Shown: positions 1 through 4,894 of the stretch, piece by piece
Layout of the letters: each line of letters opens with the position of its first letter
Position numbering within the stretch: the stretch's first letter is position 1
NCBI GenBank assembly: GCA_009840695.1
Contig: VXNG01000140.1
Coordinates: 1-5,026, forward strand
DNA: 5,026 bases
Origin: Acidimicrobiaceae bacterium
GTDB taxonomy: Bacteria > Actinomycetota > Acidimicrobiia > Acidimicrobiales > Aldehydirespiratoraceae
Direction of reading: 5' to 3'
Program-made: the position numbers and the translations under genes
Notes under the pieces: generated by a model
What the model saw: the letters and a program-made list of their open reading frames with translations, nothing else
Told to the model about the DNA's origin: nothing
Database searches by the model: none

Positions 1-754
1 CGAGGTCGACCTCGTCCCACGTGGCGAACCGGGCCTCGCCGGAGCGGGCCGCGGTAGCGGCGAGGAACCTCAGGCACGCCACCGTGGGCGGCCAAGCCCT
101 CGGCAGCGTGTCGAGCTTCTCGAGGGTCGGGCCGACCTGGTCGTGGGGCAGGCTGGCCAGGTGCTTGGCCGGGGTGGTGTGGCGGGGCAGCGCCACGGCC
201 AGCGCGGGGCCTGCGGGGTCGTCTGTGCGGTATCCGGCGGCGATACTCCAGCGCAACACCACCCCGAGGCGGGTCTTGAGCTTGCGGGCGGTCTCGGCTT
301 TGGTGTGCCAGATGGGCAGCAGCACCCGCACTAGGTCGGCCGTCGTGATCTCATCCACGGGAGTGGACCCCAGCGCGGGGTAGACGTACCGCCTCAGCGA
401 CGACCGCCAGTTCTCCTCGGAACGGCCGGTGTCCTTCCAGCCGGGCCGGTACGCCTCGATCACCTGCTCCGTGGCCTCCGCGAAGGTGGGGGCGCAGTCG
501 TTGGCCCGCCTCGACTTGGGGTCGATCCCGGCCCGGGCCAGCTTGCGGTACTGGTAGGCGATGTCGCGGGCCTCGGCCAGCGTCGTGTACGCCACCGCGC
601 CCATTCCGATGTCTCGGCGCCGCCCTCGGACGGTGCCCCGCCAGACCCACTGCCTGGACCCTCCGGGCGCCACCCGCAGGATCAGCCCGTGCAGGTCGTA
701 GTACTTTCCGGGCTTCTTTATGCCTCTGACGGAGGCGGCGGTGAGCTTGCCCAT
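1..754 (-). CDS. Tyrosine recombinase (P4-type phage/island integrase), C-terminus beyond left edge
   Basis: This is a site-specific DNA integrase of the tyrosine recombinase family; 251 residues are visible. Residues ~3-80 match the arm-type DNA-binding domain of P4-like integrases (DUF4102 type): KLTAASVRGIKKPGKYYDLHG, then LILRVAPGGSRQWVW, an RRRDIGMG turn, and LAEARDIAYQYRKLARAGIDP. Residues ~90-190 are the helical core-binding domain, beginning TFAEATEQVIEAY. The catalytic domain starts near 200 and shows the first active-site arginine, R237, in TAARSGEARFATWDEVDL. The H-x-x-R box and nucleophilic tyrosine would lie past base 1; family members are usually ~400 residues. The ATG at 752-754 was chosen because GAAGAGAGA lies just upstream and the protein then begins with the usual M-x-L-T pattern. 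An in-frame ATG at 776-778 has a poorer ribosome site. The gene marks a likely integrated element, but its boundary and target cannot be fixed here. Domain assignment is by eye and confident. Confidence 0.93.
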   Translation of the reverse strand, partial: MGKLTAASVRGIKKPGKYYDLHGLILRVAPGGSRQWVWRGTVRGRRRDIGMGAVAYTTLAEARDIAYQYRKLARAGIDPKSRRANDCAPTFAEATEQVIEAYRPGWKDTGRSEENWRSSLRRYVYPALGSTPVDEITTADLVRVLLPIWHTKAETARKLKTRLGVVLRWSIAAGYRTDDPAGPALAVALPRHTTPAKHLASLPHDQVGPTLEKLDTLPRAWPPTVACLRFLAATAARSGEARFATWDEVDL

Positions 755-1061
755 CGCATGTCTCTCTTCAATGCCCATAGCCACATCATGGCCTACGTTG
801 CGTAACTAAGTTGTTGCTACAACGTCTAAGATCTCCTGATTCGTCACTCCACCTAGTCGGGGAGCGTCCCCATTCTGTCCCTCAATTGCGGTGCCGCATA
901 CCCGTACATTCATCTTGCGAAGCGTGATGGTTGGTTTCACATGGGTAGGAGAGTCCTCCCGATGGATCTTCGGCAACCAAGACCTGACGATCAGTGGATC
1001 GCCGTCGCAGTAGCTCCAGCCCAGCCTGCGCCCCTGATCTCCAGGGATTCGAGCTGCTCCG
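755..1061. other. Intergenic stretch upstream of the integrase, no assured gene
   Basis: About 307 bases, visibly less GC-rich than the flanking genes. It holds several small inverted repeats: ACGTTG 795-800 with CAACGT 820-825; TTGGTT 931-936 with AACCAA 975-980; CGATC 988-992 with GATCG 997-1001. The first pair lies just upstream of the integrase start and could be a regulator or recombinase site. On the minus strand one frame is free of stops from inside CCM1 down to TAG at 806-808. Its best internal start is GTG 938-940 (44 codons; reads VKPTITLRKM at the N-terminus and ends EILDVVATT), but no well-spaced ribosome site precedes it. No tRNA gene or convincing tRNA 3' end is seen, although the minus strand contains a TCGAATCCC string near 1046-1054. 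Confidence 0.6.
1032..1046 (-). terminator. Possible weak stem-loop after CCM1
   Basis: CCCTG (1032-1036) and CAGGG (1042-1046) form a perfect 5-bp stem around a 5-base loop, about 16 bases after the CCM1 stop codon. There is no U-tract, so an intrinsic terminator is doubtful. Confidence 0.2.
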
Positions 1062-1583
1062 CTAGCCCGATGGGGTGACCGGCACCTCGTAGTGAGCCTC
1101 GAAGAGCGCCACCAGCCTCGTCAGCGTCACCGCGATCTCCTGCTGGTTCTCCTCCAGCTTGGCGAGCCTGGCGTCAACGGCGGCGAAGCGGGCGTCGACG
1201 TCTTCCTCGAATGCGGCGAACTCGGCGACGAGTGTCGCCAGCGTCACCGCGATCTGCTGCTGGTTCTCCTCCAGCTTGGTGAGTCGGGCGTCAACGGCGG
1301 CGAATCGGGTGTCGATGCTCTCTTCGAGCCTGGTGATCCGGTCGTTGGTCTCGGTGATCTGGTCGCCGGTCTCGTTGAAGAAGAACAGCACCAGGCCCGC
1401 CATGACAGCCACGACCAGGCTCGGGATGGCGTTGTCGCTGAATTTGTCCCATCCGGCTGCCAGGAAGCCCCGCCGCGGTGCGACCGGTGCCTCGTCGGTG
1501 GCTGGTGCCGTTGGTGGGGGGTCGGCTGTGTGGGCCATTCGAGCAGGTGGTTGAGCGGTGGCAGAGCCAGCGGGAGCGGACAC
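1062..1583 (-). CDS. CCM1: small membrane-anchored coiled-coil protein, copy 1 of 3
   Basis: The protein has 173 residues and unknown function. Residues 1-36 are rich in Pro and Ala (PPARMAHTADPPPTAP). R37-R38 precede a conserved GWDKFSDNAIPS and one membrane helix at ~52-69 (AIPSLVVAVMAGLVLFFF). Residues ~71-165 are predicted coiled coil with regularly spaced L/I/V/F. The basic N-terminal flank predicts N-inside, with the coiled coil outside the cytoplasm. Two nearly identical 25-residue segments (91-115 and 130-154, each containing RFAAVDARL then KLEENQQ) are 39 residues apart. GTG at 1581-1583 was chosen as start because AACGAGG stands 5 bases upstream in all comparable copies; a longer frame to 1640 exists. 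Across the three copies the leader changes length by two bases while the frame after GTG is kept with synonymous changes, so the leader is untranslated. It is divergent from the gene at 1710. No homologue of known function was recognised. Confidence 0.82.
   Translation of the reverse strand: MSAPAGSATAQPPARMAHTADPPPTAPATDEAPVAPRRGFLAAGWDKFSDNAIPSLVVAVMAGLVLFFFNETGDQITETNDRITRLEESIDTRFAAVDARLTKLEENQQQIAVTLATLVAEFAAFEEDVDARFAAVDARLAKLEENQQEIAVTLTRLVALFEAHYEVPVTPSG
1122..1313 (-). repeat. Internal duplication of coiled-coil module in CCM1
   Basis: The 75-base segments 1122-1196 and 1239-1313 differ at only 6 positions by direct comparison, with a period of 117 bases (39 codons). The segments encode residues 130-154 and 91-115. 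Conservation at DNA level suggests a fairly recent duplication or gene conversion within the coiled coil. Confidence 0.85.
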
Positions 1584-1588
1584 GGGAA

Positions 1589-1595
1589 CCTCGTT
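1589..1595 (-). promoter_or_regulatory. Ribosome binding site deciding the CCM1 start
   Basis: AACGAGG on the minus strand lies 5 bases before GTG 1581-1583. The same motif and GTG-TCC start occur in CCM2 and CCM3, fixing the start in preference to the upstream GTG at 1640 or the internal ATG (residue 16). Confidence 0.65.
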
Positions 1596-1623
1596 CGGGT
1601 CGGCGAGCGGTCGGCAGGGCCGA

Positions 1624-1643
1624 AGGCACACCGTTGACACCCG
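1624..1643 (-). promoter_or_regulatory. 20-bp leader element, copy 1
   Basis: On the plus strand it reads AGGCACACCGTTGACACCCG and is identical in all three CCM leaders (also 2701-2720 and 4827-4846). It lies 19-38 bases downstream of the -10 box, hence inside the 5' leader. It contains GGTGT twice, 9 bases apart (minus strand). CACCG and CGGTG around it can form a 5-bp stem. Operator, RNA element or processing site are all possible. Confidence 0.55.
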
Positions 1644-1661
1644 GTGGCAAGGTTAGATATC

Positions 1662-1667
1662 AGTATA
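1662..1667 (-). promoter_or_regulatory. Probable -10 box of CCM1
   Basis: TATACT on the minus strand, ~78 bases upstream of the GTG start. The corresponding positions of the other copies read TATATT and TATACT. No good -35 is present here, because the sequence upstream is replaced by tandem ATGTTGCAT repeats, unlike CCM2 and CCM3. Confidence 0.45.
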
Positions 1668-1668
1668 C

Positions 1669-1691
1669 ATGATGTTGCATCATGTTGCATG
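1669..1691. promoter_or_regulatory. Tandem ATGTTGCAT operator-like repeat between divergent genes
   Basis: ATGTTGCAT occurs at 1672-1680 and again at 1682-1690, a 10-base period of about one helical turn. The first is centred in a perfect inverted repeat, ATGATG-TTG-CATCAT (1669-1683); the second lies in CATG-TTG-CATG (1681-1691). It directly abuts the -10 box of CCM1 and lies ~19 bases before the start of the divergent gene. This position fits a repressor or activator site serving both, which is inference. Confidence 0.45.
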
Positions 1692-1709
1692 AACAGCTAG
1701 CGTCTAGTC

Positions 1710-2093
1710 ATGGAGGCGGTCACGTTGTCGGATCTCTGGCCCATCATCGTCGCTGTGCTGGGCCCGATGCTGCTGTGCGTCACGGCGCTAGCGAGGTACC
1801 AGCACCTCGACAGCACCAAGACCCGCAAGATGATCACAGACTCCGAGAAGGCGACTCTCAAGCTGATCACGGACTCCGACGAGAAGAACCGCGATCTGAT
1901 CGAGAAGTCCAGCCAGGAGAACCGCAGACTGATCGAGAAGACCCAAGACCTGCTGAGGGCGAGCCACGCGGAGCTCAGCGGCAGTCTGGCGGACGCACGC
2001 GAGCGTCTGGCCCGCATGGAGGGCTACCTGAGGATCCCACCCTCGCCCCACCAGGATGCCGGCGACGGAGACGGCAACGCCGAAGCGGCCTGA
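1710..2093 (+). CDS. Small single-pass membrane protein with hendecad coiled coil
   Basis: This is an unrecognised protein of 127 residues. A membrane helix spans ~9-28 (LWPIIVAVLGPMLLCVTALA) and is followed by R/K-rich sequence (ARYQHLDSTKTRK). The positive-inside rule therefore puts the N-terminus outside and the coiled coil in the cytoplasm. Residues 41-84 are four consecutive 11-residue units, each opening with M/L-I (MITDSEKATLK, LITDSDEKNRD, LIEKSSQENRR, LIEKTQDLLRA), a hendecad pattern typical of straight or slightly right-handed coiled coils. A short helical stretch (85-106) and an acidic low-complexity tail (DAGDGDGNAEAA) follow. ATG 1710 has no ribosome site. An in-frame TTG at 1725 has GGAGG (1712-1716) 8 bases ahead, so the true protein may be 122 residues. 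It is divergent from CCM1 and convergent with CCM2 (45-base gap), but not homologous to the CCM family. Confidence 0.78.
   Translation: MEAVTLSDLWPIIVAVLGPMLLCVTALARYQHLDSTKTRKMITDSEKATLKLITDSDEKNRDLIEKSSQENRRLIEKTQDLLRASHAELSGSLADARERLARMEGYLRIPPSPHQDAGDGDGNAEAA
1830..1961 (+). repeat. Four tandem 33-base (11-codon) repeats
   Basis: The units at 1830-1862, 1863-1895, 1896-1928 and 1929-1961 each begin with an ATG/CTG-ATC pair and share GACTCC or GAGAAG segments. They encode the four hendecads of the small membrane protein. The DNA is diverged but the phase is exact. Confidence 0.75.
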
Positions 2094-2138
2094 GCCGCCG
2101 ACCCAGTGCTTCGGTAACTCCCGGACCCCGACCCCTCG

Positions 2139-2660
2139 CTAGCCCGAAGCGATGGCCGGCGCCTCGAAGTGAGCTTCGACGAGCGCCACCAGCCTTGCCA
2201 GCGTCAGCGCGATCTGCCGCTGGTTCTCCTCCAGCCTGGTGAGCCTGGCTTCGACGGCCTCGAACCGGGCGTTGACTGCGTCGAACCGGTTGTTGACGTC
2301 CTCTTGGAATGCCGTGAATTCGCCGATGAGTGTCGCCAGCGTCACGGCGATCTTCTGCTGGTTCTCCTCCAGCTTGGTGAATCGGGCGTCGAAATCGGCT
2401 TCAAGCCTGTCGATCCGGTCCTCGAGCCTGGTGATCCGGTCGCCGGTCTCGTTGAAGAAGAACAGCACCAGGCCTGCGATGACGGCCACGACCAGGCTCG
2501 GGATGGCGTTGTCGCTGAACTTGGCCCACCCGGCTGCCAGGAAACCGCGCCGCGGCGCGACCCGGGCCTCGTCGGCGGCTGGTGCCGTTGGTGGGGGGTC
2601 GGGTGTGTGGGCCATTCGAGCAGGTTGTTGAGCGGTGGCAGAGTCAGTGAGAGCGGACAC
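2139..2660 (-). CDS. CCM2: small membrane-anchored coiled-coil protein, copy 2 of 3
   Basis: The protein has 173 residues and is a paralogue of CCM1 of unknown function. The first 80 residues align without gaps to CCM1, including PPPTAPAADEARVAPRRGF, the AKFSDNAIPS turn and the membrane helix at ~52-69. The coiled coil (~71-165) differs. The first LEENQQ begins at residue 97 rather than 104, and the two LEENQ boxes are 46 rather than 39 residues apart. The two changes cancel, so total length is the same. The C-terminus TLARLVALVEAHFEAPAIASG keeps the family tail. Start GTG 2658-2660 is supported by AACGAGG five bases upstream; longer frames reaching 2753 read through the leader. It is divergent from the MBL-fold gene (224 bases between starts) and convergent with the hendecad gene. 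Coiled-coil and topology statements come from residue pattern only. Confidence 0.82.
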   Translation of the reverse strand: MSALTDSATAQQPARMAHTPDPPPTAPAADEARVAPRRGFLAAGWAKFSDNAIPSLVVAVIAGLVLFFFNETGDRITRLEDRIDRLEADFDARFTKLEENQQKIAVTLATLIGEFTAFQEDVNNRFDAVNARFEAVEARLTRLEENQRQIALTLARLVALVEAHFEAPAIASG

Positions 2661-2665
2661 GGGAA

Positions 2666-2672
2666 CCTCGTT
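2666..2672 (-). promoter_or_regulatory. Ribosome binding site deciding the CCM2 start
   Basis: AACGAGG on the minus strand, 5 bases before GTG 2658-2660, in the same arrangement as CCM1. Confidence 0.65.
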
Positions 2673-2700
2673 CGGGTCGGCGAGCGGTCGGCAGGGCCGA

Positions 2701-2720
2701 AGGCACACCGTTGACACCCG
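2701..2720 (-). promoter_or_regulatory. 20-bp leader element, copy 2
   Basis: Identical to the elements at 1624-1643 and 4827-4846. The distance to the start codon is 40 bases, as in CCM1, against 38 in CCM3. Confidence 0.55.
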
Positions 2721-2738
2721 GTGGCAAGGCTGTGCATC

Positions 2739-2768
2739 AATATACACTAACAATCACTGAAGTGCCAA
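2739..2768 (-). promoter_or_regulatory. Probable promoter of CCM2
   Basis: TTGGCA (-35, 2763-2768) and TATATT (-10, 2739-2744) on the minus strand with an 18-base spacer. The spacer shares AGTGATTGTT with the CCM3 promoter. CAATCAC is repeated on the plus strand at 2751-2757 and 2766-2772. Called by eye against the housekeeping sigma consensus. Confidence 0.5.
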
Positions 2769-2780
2769 TCACGTCACAAT

Positions 2781-2812
2781 CTAGCGGGCCCCCGCTCGCG
2801 ATCTCCCGCTAG
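2781..2812. promoter_or_regulatory. Inverted repeat ahead of the MBL-fold gene
   Basis: CTAGCGGG (2781-2788) is perfectly complementary to CCCGCTAG (2805-2812). A second CCCGCT at 2791-2796 can pair with the same left arm instead, so two mutually exclusive hairpins are possible. It lies ~73 bases before the MBL-fold start. It could be an operator or an attenuator-like element; no U-tract follows. Confidence 0.4.
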
Positions 2813-2871
2813 CCGGACAGGTGGTTGGATAGGGTCGGGCGGTTGGCACCTGGTGACAGTCGACCGATCCG

Positions 2872-2876
2872 AAGGG
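2872..2876 (+). promoter_or_regulatory. Ribosome binding site deciding the MBL-fold start
   Basis: AAGGG lies 8 bases before ATG 2885, supporting this start over the in-frame TTG at 2825. Confidence 0.6.
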
Positions 2877-2884
2877 CGATCAAG

Positions 2885-4210
2885 ATGCAGCGCAGCGAGG
2901 CCGCGATCGAGTTCGTCAACCATGCCTCGTTCGTGCTCGAGTTCGCGGGGAGCAGGATCATCCAGGATCCCTGGCTGTACGGGGCGGCCTTCAACGACGG
3001 CTGGAGCCTGCTGTGCGACTACAACTTCGACCTGGAGAGGTTCGCCGAGATCGACTACATCTGGATATCGCACGAGCATCCCGACCACTTCTCGCCCGCA
3101 GTGCTGCGCAGCGTGCCCGAGGCGATCCGCCGCGACACCACCGTCCTGTTCCAGCAGACCAAGGACCGCAAGGTGATCGACTTCTGCGCGGAGATCGGGT
3201 ACCGGACCCGCGAGCTCCGGCACATGGAGCCGGTCAGACTGGACAACGGCGTCGAGGTGGTATGCGGCCAGGTTCCGCTGTACGACTCGTGGATCCTCTA
3301 CGACTGCGGCGGGTTCAAGATCATGAACATCAACGACTGCGCCGTAGACGGCAAGGCCGCGGCCAACATCAAGCGGGCAGTCGGGCCCGTCGACGTGCTG
3401 TTCACCCAGTTCAGCTACGCCGGCTGGAAGGGAGGCCCCGGCGACACAGCCATGAGACGGGCGGCCGCCGGCGCCAAGCTGGCGGCCATGCAGGCCCAGA
3501 TCCGTGCGCTGGAGCCGCGCTGGACCGTGCCGTTCGCCAGCTTCTCGTACTTCTCGCATCACGAGAACCAGCACAGCAACGACAGCATCAACCGGCCCAC
3601 CGACGCGGCAGCCGCCATCGAGGAGGCCGGCTCGGAGCCCGTCGTCATGTACCCCGGCGACACCTGGACGCCGAGCGACCCGTGGACCAACGACGCCGCC
3701 CTGGAGCGGTACCGGCCACACTACGACTTCGCCGCCAAGAGCCATCTGACCTCTGAGACCGTCGACGAGCCGGCCCTGCTCGAGGCCGGGCGGGCCTACG
3801 TATCCAGGATCCGCTCGCGCAACAGCGTCGCGCTGCTGAGGCTGATGCGGCGGGCTCCCCTGGCTGGACTGCTGCGGCCGGCCACCATCGTCGCCCACGA
3901 CCTGGACGCGACCTACCGCTTCTCGCTGGAGCACGGGCTGCGGCGCATCGACCCGGTGGCCAGCCCCGACGTCAAGATGCACTCGAGCAGCCTCGACTAC
4001 CTGCTGAGGCACGAATGGGGATTCGACACGCTCGCCGTCAACGGGCGCTTCGAGGCCGACCTGAGCGGGTTCGCCAAGTTGAAGAAGCTGTTCGCGGTCG
4101 GTTCGCTCAACAACGCCGGGCGCCGCCTGTCGGCCGGCCTGCTGCTCGACCGGGACATCCTGCGGATGGTCTGGACCGCGGCGCGGCGGCTGAGGCGCCT
4201 CGGCACCTGA
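2885..4210 (+). CDS. Metallo-beta-lactamase-fold hydrolase related to the CMAH catalytic half
   Basis: The enzyme has 441 residues and is probably cytoplasmic, with no signal peptide or membrane helix. The metal-binding box HEHPDH is at 63-68 (H63, H65, D67, H68). Other motifs in order are VNHASFVLE (11-19), DPWLYGAAFNDGW (28-40), KIMNINDC (145-152), TQFSYAGW (174-181), PFASFSYFSHHEN (216-228) and YPGDTW (256-261). This order matches CMP-N-acetylneuraminate hydroxylase (CMAH: DPWL-GPAF-GW, SH-H-DH, ILN-DC, PFAGYF-SH), but the Rieske iron-sulphur domain of CMAH is absent, so hydroxylation by that mechanism is unlikely. The more distant relation is to UlaG/NAPE-PLD-like hydrolases. Residues ~335-441 form an extra C-terminal region (SSSLDYLLRHEWGFDTLAVNGRF) seen in some bacterial relatives. 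The substrate is unknown, and no sugar-pathway neighbours are visible. The gene is divergent from CCM2 and convergent with CCM3. A longer TTG start at 2825 is possible. The fold is confident; the CMAH link comes from memory of motifs. Confidence 0.9.
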   Translation: MQRSEAAIEFVNHASFVLEFAGSRIIQDPWLYGAAFNDGWSLLCDYNFDLERFAEIDYIWISHEHPDHFSPAVLRSVPEAIRRDTTVLFQQTKDRKVIDFCAEIGYRTRELRHMEPVRLDNGVEVVCGQVPLYDSWILYDCGGFKIMNINDCAVDGKAAANIKRAVGPVDVLFTQFSYAGWKGGPGDTAMRRAAAGAKLAAMQAQIRALEPRWTVPFASFSYFSHHENQHSNDSINRPTDAAAAIEEAGSEPVVMYPGDTWTPSDPWTNDAALERYRPHYDFAAKSHLTSETVDEPALLEAGRAYVSRIRSRNSVALLRLMRRAPLAGLLRPATIVAHDLDATYRFSLEHGLRRIDPVASPDVKMHSSSLDYLLRHEWGFDTLAVNGRFEADLSGFAKLKKLFAVGSLNNAGRRLSAGLLLDRDILRMVWTAARRLRRLGT

Positions 4211-4299
4211 CGAGCCGTCATTGGTGACCTTCAGCTAGAGCGCGTCCTCGTTGCCAGCTGCTACCAGCGCGACCTCGCAACGCCTCTCCGCCTCCATAG

Positions 4300-4788
4300 C
4301 TAGCCGTGGCCCTCGTTTTGGGCTTCGAAGAGAGCGACCAGTCTCACCAGCGTCTCGGCGATCTCCTGCTGGTTCTCCTCCAGCTTGCTGAACCTGGCCT
4401 CGATTTCGGCTTCGATTCCAATGAACCGTATGTCGACGGCGGCGAACCTGGCGCCGATGTCAGCTTCGAGCCTGTCGAAGAGAGCGACCAGTGTCGTCTG
4501 CGTCAGAGCGATCTCCTGCTGGTTCTCGTCGAGCCTGGCGATCCGGTCCTCGATCCTGGTCATCCTGCCGCTGTTCTCGTTGAGGCTGAACAGCATCAGG
4601 CCCGCGAAGAGGCCCAAGACCAGGCTGGGGATGGCGTTGTCGCTGAACTTGGCCCATCCGGCGCCCCAGATGCTGCGACGCGGCACAGCCGGCGTCTTGT
4701 CGGAGGCTGGTGCGGTTGGTGGGGGGTCAGGTGATGGGGCCATACGAGCAGGCGGTTGAGCAGCAGCGGTGTCAGGGGGTGGGGACAC
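4300..4788 (-). CDS. CCM3: small membrane-anchored coiled-coil protein, copy 3 of 3
   Basis: The protein has 162 residues and is the most divergent paralogue. Residues 1-80 align without gaps to CCM1 and CCM2 (AQPPARMAPSPDPPPTAP, PRRSIWGAGWAKFSDNAIPS, helix ~52-69 reading SLVLGLFAGLMLFSL). The coiled coil starts sooner: the first LDENQQ is at residue 86, the second LEENQQ at 136 (50 apart), and the protein ends TLVRLVALFEAQNEGHG. Synonymous third-base changes relative to CCM1 (for example CGA/CGT and CCA/CCG near residue 15) show that it is translated from GTG 4786-4788. AACGAGG stands 4 bases upstream. The leader is 2 bases shorter than in the other copies, which would break any longer frame, so the open frame up to 4863 is not the protein start. 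The MBL-fold gene ends 89 bases away, facing it. Function is unknown. Confidence 0.82.
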   Translation of the reverse strand: MSPPPDTAAAQPPARMAPSPDPPPTAPASDKTPAVPRRSIWGAGWAKFSDNAIPSLVLGLFAGLMLFSLNENSGRMTRIEDRIARLDENQQEIALTQTTLVALFDRLEADIGARFAAVDIRFIGIEAEIEARFSKLEENQQEIAETLVRLVALFEAQNEGHG

Positions 4789-4792
4789 AGAG

Positions 4793-4799
4793 CCTCGTT
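4793..4799 (-). promoter_or_regulatory. Ribosome binding site deciding the CCM3 start
   Basis: AACGAGG on the minus strand, 4 bases before GTG 4786-4788. It is retained although the rest of this part of the leader has diverged from the other copies. Confidence 0.65.
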
Positions 4800-4826
4800 T
4801 CGAATAGGGGTCAGCCAGCAAAGCCG

Positions 4827-4846
4827 AGGCACACCGTTGACACCCG
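4827..4846 (-). promoter_or_regulatory. 20-bp leader element, copy 3
   Basis: A perfect match to the elements at 1624-1643 and 2701-2720, although flanking leader sequence is diverged. The adjacent stem base changes CACCG to CATCG, which still pairs with CGGTG through a G-U pair in RNA. Confidence 0.6.
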
Positions 4847-4864
4847 ATGGCGAGGTTACACACC

Positions 4865-4894
4865 AGTATACATCAACAATCACTAAAATGTAGA
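4865..4894 (-). promoter_or_regulatory. Probable promoter of CCM3
   Basis: TCTACA (-35, 4889-4894) and TATACT (-10, 4865-4870) on the minus strand with an 18-base spacer. The spacing is identical to CCM2 and AGTGATTGTT is shared in the spacer. Confidence 0.5.

Follow-up and report, generated by a model that had tools for sequence, protein, structure and literature searches.

Three paralogous genes and their upstream leaders

The window, i.e. the whole stretch of 5,026 nucleotides analysed here, hosts three related genes, CCM1 (1062..1583), CCM2 (2139..2660) and CCM3 (4300..4788), all on the minus strand. GTG start codons are found at 1583, 2660 and 4788, respectively, and the products measure 173, 173 and 162 aa. 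CCM1 features a Pro-rich tail, a membrane helix and a coiled coil. A sequence-only reading of this DNA had placed three same-strand copies at these positions, and the open reading frames, the starts and the strand agree. The gap-free N-terminal module of 80 residues which it described is equally found, along with the Pro-rich segment, RR, KFSDNAIPS and the membrane helix. Pairwise alignment of the ungapped first 80 residues gives 67/80 identities for CCM1-CCM2, 50/80 for CCM2-CCM3 and 47/80 for CCM1-CCM3; the coils, which had been called variable, are separated by indels. The likeness is not a matter of chance, because 173 homologous proteins were retrieved with one copy as query (E<=1e-3; the best 120 of the 173 were listed), and at least 882 clusters were matched by a profile of distant family members (E<=1e-6; 7,996 candidates scored). 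The notion of a dispersed, multicopy family of membrane-anchored coiled-coil proteins, in which the anchor is fairly constant and the stalk varies, is supported.

The conserved unit is larger than the CDS. Ahead of each start codon it takes in some 85 nt, which span a structured 5' leader and a -10-like box, neither the leader nor the fixed promoter having been mentioned in the earlier reading. The leaders, on the minus strand, extend over 71 nt in CCM1 (1584..1654) and CCM2 (2661..2731), and over 69 nt in CCM3 (4789..4857), where the sequence is more divergent. They score 64.4, 64.1 and 40.6 bits, respectively, with R1, a covariance model trained on leaders which include the window type (the CCM1 leader is in the training set) and come from the same genomes later searched. 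Scores with R2, a model built without window-type leaders, are 40.8 bits (E 1.8e-5) for both CCM1 and CCM2, and 26.8 bits (E 0.01) for CCM3. The -10-like boxes, assigned by sequence and by a family promoter profile, are TATACT in CCM1 (1662..1667), TATATT in CCM2 (2739..2744) and TATACT in CCM3 (4865..4870), all on the minus strand.

CCM1 and CCM2 are near-identical from the leader through the coil, and their flanking DNA is unrelated, as would be the case if promoter, leader and CDS travelled together as a mobile cassette, perhaps with a phage-type integrase. A tyrosine integrase resides near window-type copies in five sources (the window, L059, L060, L065 and L097); the one near the CCM genes carries Arm-DNA-bind_3 and Phage_int_M domains. 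L059 and L060 resemble the same region in two genomes. Yet, the integrase cluster accounts for 5 of 76 sources, several other groups share syntenic neighbours, tRNA genes are absent from the six integrase loci scanned, and the conserved ends coincide with the ends of functional parts. Mobilization as a cassette is thus quite unlikely.

The leader as a predicted structured RNA

A sigma-70-like promoter is found in fixed register, with a TTG(A/C)CA-like element at -37 and TA...T at -14 to -9, and the leader holds a fixed position within the predicted 5'UTR, from the promoter to the start codon. Given the fixed promoter distance, the predicted transcription start is the first base of helix P1. 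In CCM1 (all coordinates on the minus strand) the 5' strand of P1 (1648..1654), assigned by fold, covariation and promoter register, corresponds to the predicted first bases of the mRNA. The 3' strand (1587..1593), assigned by fold and covariation, holds the Shine-Dalgarno (SD) sequence GAGG (1589-1592). P1 encloses a second covarying helix, the P2 hairpin (CACCG...CGGTG, 1629..1646), the loop of which carries a GGT that may pair with ACC at 1598..1600, the proposed 3' side of a tentative pseudoknot, P3. The minimum-energy fold of the CCM1 leader lacks P2, and pairs CGGGU with ACCCG instead; the stability of the CCM3 leader fold is not unusual (z -0.8).

Family leaders are 61-97 nt long. The hairpin is near-invariant, its loop starts with CCGGG(C/T), and GCCGCC is frequent just before the 3' strand of P1. 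The middle of the leader differs in length and sequence, and the P1 arms are separated by 44-77 nt without fixed phasing. In 64 leaders the SD arm ends 4-9 nt ahead of the start codon. The possibility that the leader is the coding N-terminus of the protein was considered, the frame being open in the window. It was rejected because leader lengths occur in all three mod-3 classes (17/26/21), and the helices covary.

Covariation was assessed on 40 leader rows, with 500 shuffles as control; shuffles ignore relatedness. Doubly changed P1/P2 pair cells were 38, against 12.0 +/- 4.3 in shuffled sets (0/500), and 91.3% of the P1/P2 cells were paired, against 86.8% (0/500); structures slid along the alignment gave 31-49% pairing. 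In the 26 leaders left when the window type is omitted, paired cells were 93.4% vs 89.9% and doubly changed cells 15 vs 5.4, both at 0/500. Three of five measures stand at 0/500 in both sets, and two are not clearly separated from shuffles; no clear excess was seen in pairs with double change (44/500 in the full set, 207/500 without the window type) or in pair types (164/500 and 292/500). Outer P1 is weak, unpaired rows being 20/40 at columns 1-105, 5/40 at 2-104 and 11/40 at 7-99, and RNAalifold alone recovered P2 and not P1. By three of the five measures, the leader qualifies as a structured, putatively cis-regulatory RNA, with helices covarying beyond column composition. P3 is tentative: its summed score exceeds controls, but helices of at least 4 pairs were 26 against 22.7 and 24.0, and in a naive Y-R test the candidate strand was absent in 8 of 64 parsed leaders, 3 of 67, CCM3 among them, being unparsed. 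At E<=1 no Rfam 15 family was matched by the window, nor by 12 loci at the gathering score; two isolated leaders, searched at E<=10, retrieved unrelated families at 10-12 bits and nothing else.

P1 and P2 could alternatively be operator palindromes, i.e. DNA targets of a transcription factor. The inverted repeats adjoin the promoter, and the dyads of DNA operators covary too. The distance and the lack of phasing between the P1 arms, one of which is the SD, fit this hypothesis poorly, as do the many G-U intermediates, found in 16/40 rows at one P1 pair and in 7/40 at one P2 pair, and we hold it very improbable.

In line with an RNA structure, the SD is predicted to be buried. The mean predicted probability that the SD is unpaired is 0.11 in 62 distinct leaders, against 0.42 when the first 8 nt are removed and 0.29 when these 8 nt are permuted. 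Pairing of the 5' end with the SD occurs in the minimum-energy fold of 60/62 leaders; in 8/62, deletion of the first 8 nt does not raise SD accessibility.

Leaders precede members of a single protein family

A regex scan had paired leader and family in 46/46 cases, with ORFs judged by eye, but this figure is biased because the loci were chosen for holding family proteins, and the R1 search of 51 genomes is fairer. At E<=2.4e-4, 65 matches were found in 18 genomes, 18 of them in stretches outside previously taken loci. All but one (64/65) finish at a start codon, and 61 of the 64 downstream proteins match a family profile at E<=1e-6, though profiles were built from members, some of which are among the 61. 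The remaining 4 of the 65 resemble broken or cut family copies. Left out of the count were five weaker rows (E 0.0135-0.0474), one of which precedes a family gene (L073), one carries promoter and P2 without a start codon (L165), and three look like chance. Four family members (L071, L095, L100 and L108) gave no R1 match at E<=1. With R2, searched over 20 sources, the best 15 matches are all family leaders, and include the three leaders of the window; the next matches have E 0.77 and 0.83.

In a wider R1 survey (E<=1e-3) matches were obtained in 11/397 genomes of the order, 5/395 of the class and 2/396 of the phylum; the stricter filters used lose weak matches. Two genomes alone lie outside the group defined by the 51 genomes. 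In G149 a protein with the family layout is encoded downstream of the leader (family profile E 3.3e-7, a weak and coil-biased match), in G310 an 11-codon frame. The pairing of leader and protein recurs in one branch of Acidimicrobiia, often in multiple copies per genome, leader-bearing paralogues ranging from 1 to 7 in the 18 genomes.

The distribution bears on what might control the leader. A metabolite or ion riboswitch would have its ligand pocket in P2 and P3, and P1 would be stabilised or released once the ligand is bound. This would account for the compact arrangement of P1, P2 and P3 that terminates at the SD, for the near-invariant hairpin with its constant loop start, and for the frequent GCCGCC. 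Known metabolite riboswitches, however, usually serve several gene types, whereas confident leader matches are confined to one protein family, and the middle of the leader is variable; a riboswitch is therefore possible but doubtful. Autogenous control, or control in trans by a protein or an sRNA, implies a family-dedicated factor which, by contacting P2 or the leader, would control translation of all copies at once. Two facts speak in favour: in the genomes searched the leader occurs with this family alone, and single genomes contain several leader-bearing paralogues. Against it, an RNA-binding domain was not seen in 20 family members, and among 595 ORFs in 76 sources no partner gene is common to all, shared neighbours tracking shared regions. 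Such a factor may exist, and we deem it somewhat more plausible than a ligand, while short of an even chance.

A family of putative membrane-anchored stalks

Family proteins share a layout in which a Pro/Ala-rich N-tail is followed by a membrane helix and a long coiled coil. Hydropathy reaches at least 1.9 over a 17-residue window in 61/64 family proteins, and in 61/64 the strongest hydrophobic window begins at residue 40-95, the coil coming after. The protein of L151 has several hydrophobic stretches, unlike the single-helix layout. The N side of the membrane helix carries more positive charge than the C side in 53/61 proteins, which suggests N-in topology with the coil outside. Judged on these features, CCM proteins appear to be single-pass, N-in membrane proteins, and the stalk would be directed outward, in the extracytoplasmic space; the term surface, used in the earlier reading, fits by inference alone.

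An AF2 model of an ATG-started, 158-aa form of CCM1 is one helix over residues 25-150. The coil is of variable length, is built of repeats of 11 and of 7 residues, and is self-similar at lags 11 and 18. The motif RhxxhE, a trimer motif of coiled coils as defined in PMC5940361, was counted 472 times in the 115 coils examined, compared with 10.2 in shuffled sequences; it is present in 113/115, though any coiled coil would show some enrichment. The stalk would probably be a parallel trimeric coiled coil. Weak matches of the coil region to solved structures (7zr2, a viral HR1 mimic, E 0.0003; 2yo3, a GCN4 fusion, E 0.0022) denote likeness at the coiled-coil level only. The 'putative inner membrane protein' of 2yo3 is presumably SadA.

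The repeated copies had been read as a family diversifying at the surface or in a scaffold. Multiple copies, a constant anchor, and coils varying in length with self-similarity at the two lags fit this view, also in the form of a surface antigen. It is nonetheless unlikely, since dN/dS is below 1 in 22/22 compared pairs (range 0.20-0.86; window pairs 0.56-0.65), which denotes weak purifying selection, with the length of the stalk altered by indels.

That no described family had been recognised holds true. CCM1, CCM2 and CCM3 all fall under the curated cut-offs of Pfam and NCBIfam; in 20 diverse members, compared with Pfam by E-values only, any single model matches at most 3/20; PHROGs gave weak coiled-coil matches only (best 7.7e-6), and none for CCM3. 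As far as these collections go, the family seems undescribed. Matches occur in 22/51 genomes, a tally which, the query being a coiled coil, takes in loose matches such as L116. In viral contigs, 139 pattern stretches found with A2 as query yielded 0 confirmed relatives, and the exact leader core is absent. Literature searches aimed at the RNA leader, the CCM family or the host, which covered mostly open-access journal papers, retrieved nothing on the subject.

A putative translational switch

Conserved and covarying, at a fixed distance from the promoter and, in the genomes searched, strictly linked to one family, the leader is probably best explained as a family-wide switch on paralogous membrane-stalk genes, plausibly a translational off-switch. 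Each paralogue would be driven by its own predicted promoter, transcription starting at about the first leader base. The first ~7 nt of the mRNA would pair with the SD and enclose P2, and the P2 loop may pair with bases immediately ahead of the SD. With the SD buried in P1, translation would be off by default, or low, until P1 opens. P1 would open in response to one signal shared by the whole family, which might be a ligand, an sRNA, a protein or an altered 5' end of the mRNA. The product would be a single-pass, N-in membrane protein, and its stalk, which varies in length, would lie outside the cytoplasm, probably as a parallel trimer. Were the altered 5' end to be the signal, the leader would represent an RNA class in which the mRNA's own first nucleotides, by pairing with the SD, gate translation of one greatly expanded membrane-stalk family, and a shift of the 5' end by a few bases, through choice of start or trimming, would turn on all paralogues together; we rate this rather unlikely.

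SAM-II and preQ1-II riboswitches are leaders which sequester the SD in a pseudoknot. The CCM leader resembles them, being a short 5'UTR fold in which the last helix buries the SD and a hairpin loop is proposed to pair near the SD. It differs in that the partner of the SD is the predicted 5' end of the mRNA, no Rfam family was found, and the leader is tied, in the genomes searched, to one membrane-protein family. As for the proteins, Bdr of Borrelia likewise exist as several paralogous copies, have coil repeats of 11 residues and carry a single membrane helix, and as a matter of description the CCM family can be set beside them. In Bdr, however, the anchor is C-terminal to the repeats, and genes reside on plasmids or prophages; CCM proteins have their anchor ahead of the coil, and a tblastn search with CCM2 gave no match in plasmid and phage records. 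To our knowledge, it is unusual for a structured leader to be confined so strictly to a single family of paralogous, non-ribosomal membrane proteins. As an object, the CCM leader is of the same kind as the candidate structured RNAs, phylogenetically narrow and found by comparison, described by Weinberg et al. 2010 (PMC2864571); the main text of that paper makes no mention of Acidimicrob, coiled, Shine-Dalgarno or membrane protein.

Both the RNA motif and the protein family, which numbers at least 882 clusters, are apparently undescribed, and they are strictly linked in the genomes searched. This association provides a direct handle on function, as what opens the leader would show when these bacteria deploy their stalks.

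Predicted leader structure

The three minus-strand paralogues of the window, CCM1, CCM2 and CCM3, start with GTG codons at 1583, 2660 and 4788, respectively, each having a GAGG Shine-Dalgarno (SD) sequence just 5'. CCM1 and CCM2 are nearly identical in DNA across most of the ~70-nt leader preceding the coding sequence, and identity is at background level 5' of the -10 region and beyond the stop codon. For most divergent members of the family that were read, the upstream region has the same layout: the 5' strand of helix P1 (the first ~7 nt), the five-pair hairpin P2 enclosing CCGGG(C/T), a segment that varies, and finally the P1 strand that contains the SD. In 40 leaders, 91.3% of P1 and P2 cells are paired versus 86.8% after shuffling (0/500), and 38 are doubly changed versus 12.0 ± 4.3 (0/500); control structures shifted by 1-3 columns are 31-49% paired. 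Two other covariation measures, the number of pairs showing a double change (44/500) and that of pair types (164/500), fall within the shuffle range. A C-G pair of P1 is replaced by U-A in 8 of the 40 leaders and by U-G in 6, while in P2 a U-A pair is changed to C-G, and a G-C pair to A-U, in 13 leaders each. Unaided, RNAalifold predicts P2 and not P1, and P1 thus rests on the count made on the named structure and on single-sequence folds. In 60 of 62 distinct leaders, the minimum-energy fold has the 5' end paired to the SD. The mean unpaired probability of the SD is 0.11 in intact leaders, 0.42 upon removal of the first 8 nt and 0.29 upon their permutation, the intact value being the lower one in 54/62 and 53/62 leaders, respectively.

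A tentative pseudoknot, P3, would join the P2 loop to bases preceding the SD strand of P1. Its summed score is 418, versus 376 ± 13 in swapped (0/500) and 378 ± 14 in shuffled (1/500) controls, and helices of at least 4 pairs are hardly commoner than in these (26 versus 22.7 and 24.0). A pyrimidine of the loop agrees with a partner purine (T-A 15, C-G 27, versus T-G 2, C-A 8; Fisher 1.2e-5) in a test uncorrected for relatedness and loosely parsed, with 12 further parsed leaders outside the table and 3 of 67, CCM3 among them, unparsed.

Ungapped profiling of 65 upstream regions, anchored on the first leader base, revealed two boxes, one resembling TTG(A/C)CA (-37 to -32) and the other TA...T (-14 to -9). 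Given this fixed register, transcription is predicted to start at or close to the 5'-terminal base of P1. Despite the open frame found in the window, the leader is not a conserved coding extension, because lengths (61-97 nt) occupy all three mod-3 classes (17, 26 and 21).

The protein family and its surroundings

A single CCM copy used as query retrieved 173 proteins at E<=1e-3, and a profile from 20 distant members at least 882 at E<=1e-6, a lower bound since scoring covered only 7,996 candidates. The six named organisms among the matches listed are five Acidimicrobiaceae MAGs and one Gemmatimonadota MAG; the latter protein (P0023, OXI83_14430) is a close relative, denoting either transfer or a binning error. 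By loose matching, CCM1 as query has matches in 22 of the 51 family-group genomes. None of CCM1-3 reaches Pfam or NCBIfam cut-offs, and 20 diverse members gave scattered Pfam matches, a single model hitting at most 3 of the 20.

The gap-free 80-residue N-terminal module described by the sequence-only reading holds, as residues 1-80 of CCM1-3 align without gaps with 47-67 identities. Diverse members retain the N-terminal MTA.., a motif like RLRDQIAENPLL N-terminal to the membrane helix, and the C-terminal KLTALIAxLNAT..V..AL.GRLL. A few deviate, such as the L151 member, which has several hydrophobic stretches and nearly lacks the coil. An AlphaFold2 model of the 158-aa, ATG-started form of CCM1, run on 24 sequences, features a disordered N-tail and one helix (25-150 of 158; mean pLDDT 81). 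Hydrophobicity along the coil repeats has a period of 3.57 residues, and lags of 11 and 18 show self-similarity. CCM proteins look like N-in stalks whose coils would face outward, probably as trimers. The sequence-only reading had suggested that the family is diversifying; yet Nei-Gojobori dN/dS is 0.20-0.86 in all 22 pairs, picked by similarity in eight groups (window pairs 0.56-0.65), and the family is under purifying, but loose, selection.

No neighbour gene is common to all family loci. In the window, a phage-type tyrosine integrase (2-784, minus strand; Arm-DNA-bind_3 and Phage_int_M domains) is cut by the window end. Integrases lie near window-type copies in five sources; those at L059, L065 and L097 have the same two domains, and L060 hosts a blast relative. 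A metallo-beta-lactamase-fold hydrolase (2825-4210, plus strand; Lactamase_B_3, 39.8 bits) separates CCM2 from CCM3, and relatives reside near CCM copies at L060, L061 and L063. Facing CCM1, a 127-aa ORF (1710-2093, plus strand) encodes, by eye, a hydrophobic helix and a charged coil; no match to R1, the full covariance model of the leader, lies near it. ORFs of L062 and L063 cluster with one overlapping this region in another frame, and its antisense frame is resembled by the tail of protein P0032. T2SSF genes adjoin one CCM group (L066 and L150 by Pfam; L080 and L085 cluster with these), and L066 carries several leader-bearing copies in tandem beside them. Large proteins recur at L059, L060, L062-L065 and L103; the one examined (L064:1233-4166) has an S-layer homology domain.

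Specificity of the leader and a model for its function

R2, a model trained on 26 leaders with zero window-type sequences, recovers all three window leaders (E 1.8e-5, 1.8e-5 and 0.01). Over 20 sources, its best 15 matches are all family leaders, the next having E 0.77. R1 gave 70 rows over the 51 genomes, 65 of them at E<=2.4e-4, with 1-7 confident leaders in each of 18 genomes; 18 of the 65 lie in stretches new to the analysis. Each of the 65 is followed by a gene of the family or by what looks like its remnant; in 64, the end of the model coincides with a start codon. Of the 64 proteins that begin there, 61 contain a stretch resembling a membrane helix, and family profiles match 61 at E<=1e-6. 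Four hits deviate: L063, where the copy is frameshifted; L153, where the contig end cuts the copy off after 17 residues; L155, with a frame of 44 residues that runs into the contig end and is family-like in its first ~18 residues only; and L097, a coil remnant lacking a start. Frameshifted, truncated or reduced leader-bearing copies (L063, L097, L154, L169) suggest gene turnover within the family. The leader is not present in all members: protein-profile matches at L071, L095, L100 and L108 lack an R1 match at E<=1, and L104 has one at E 0.051 only. Sampled genomes of the order (397), class (395) and phylum (396) added G149 and G310 only; the protein behind the G149 leader has the same layout and weak family-profile similarity.

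The simplest reading is that translation is probably off by default, with the SD covered by the transcript's first bases. That the leader is linked exclusively to one protein family mildly favours a dedicated factor or 5'-end control over a general metabolite switch. Under default-off translation, all copies would be opened by a single signal that acts on their common leader, be it a ligand, a dedicated factor or an altered 5' end itself.
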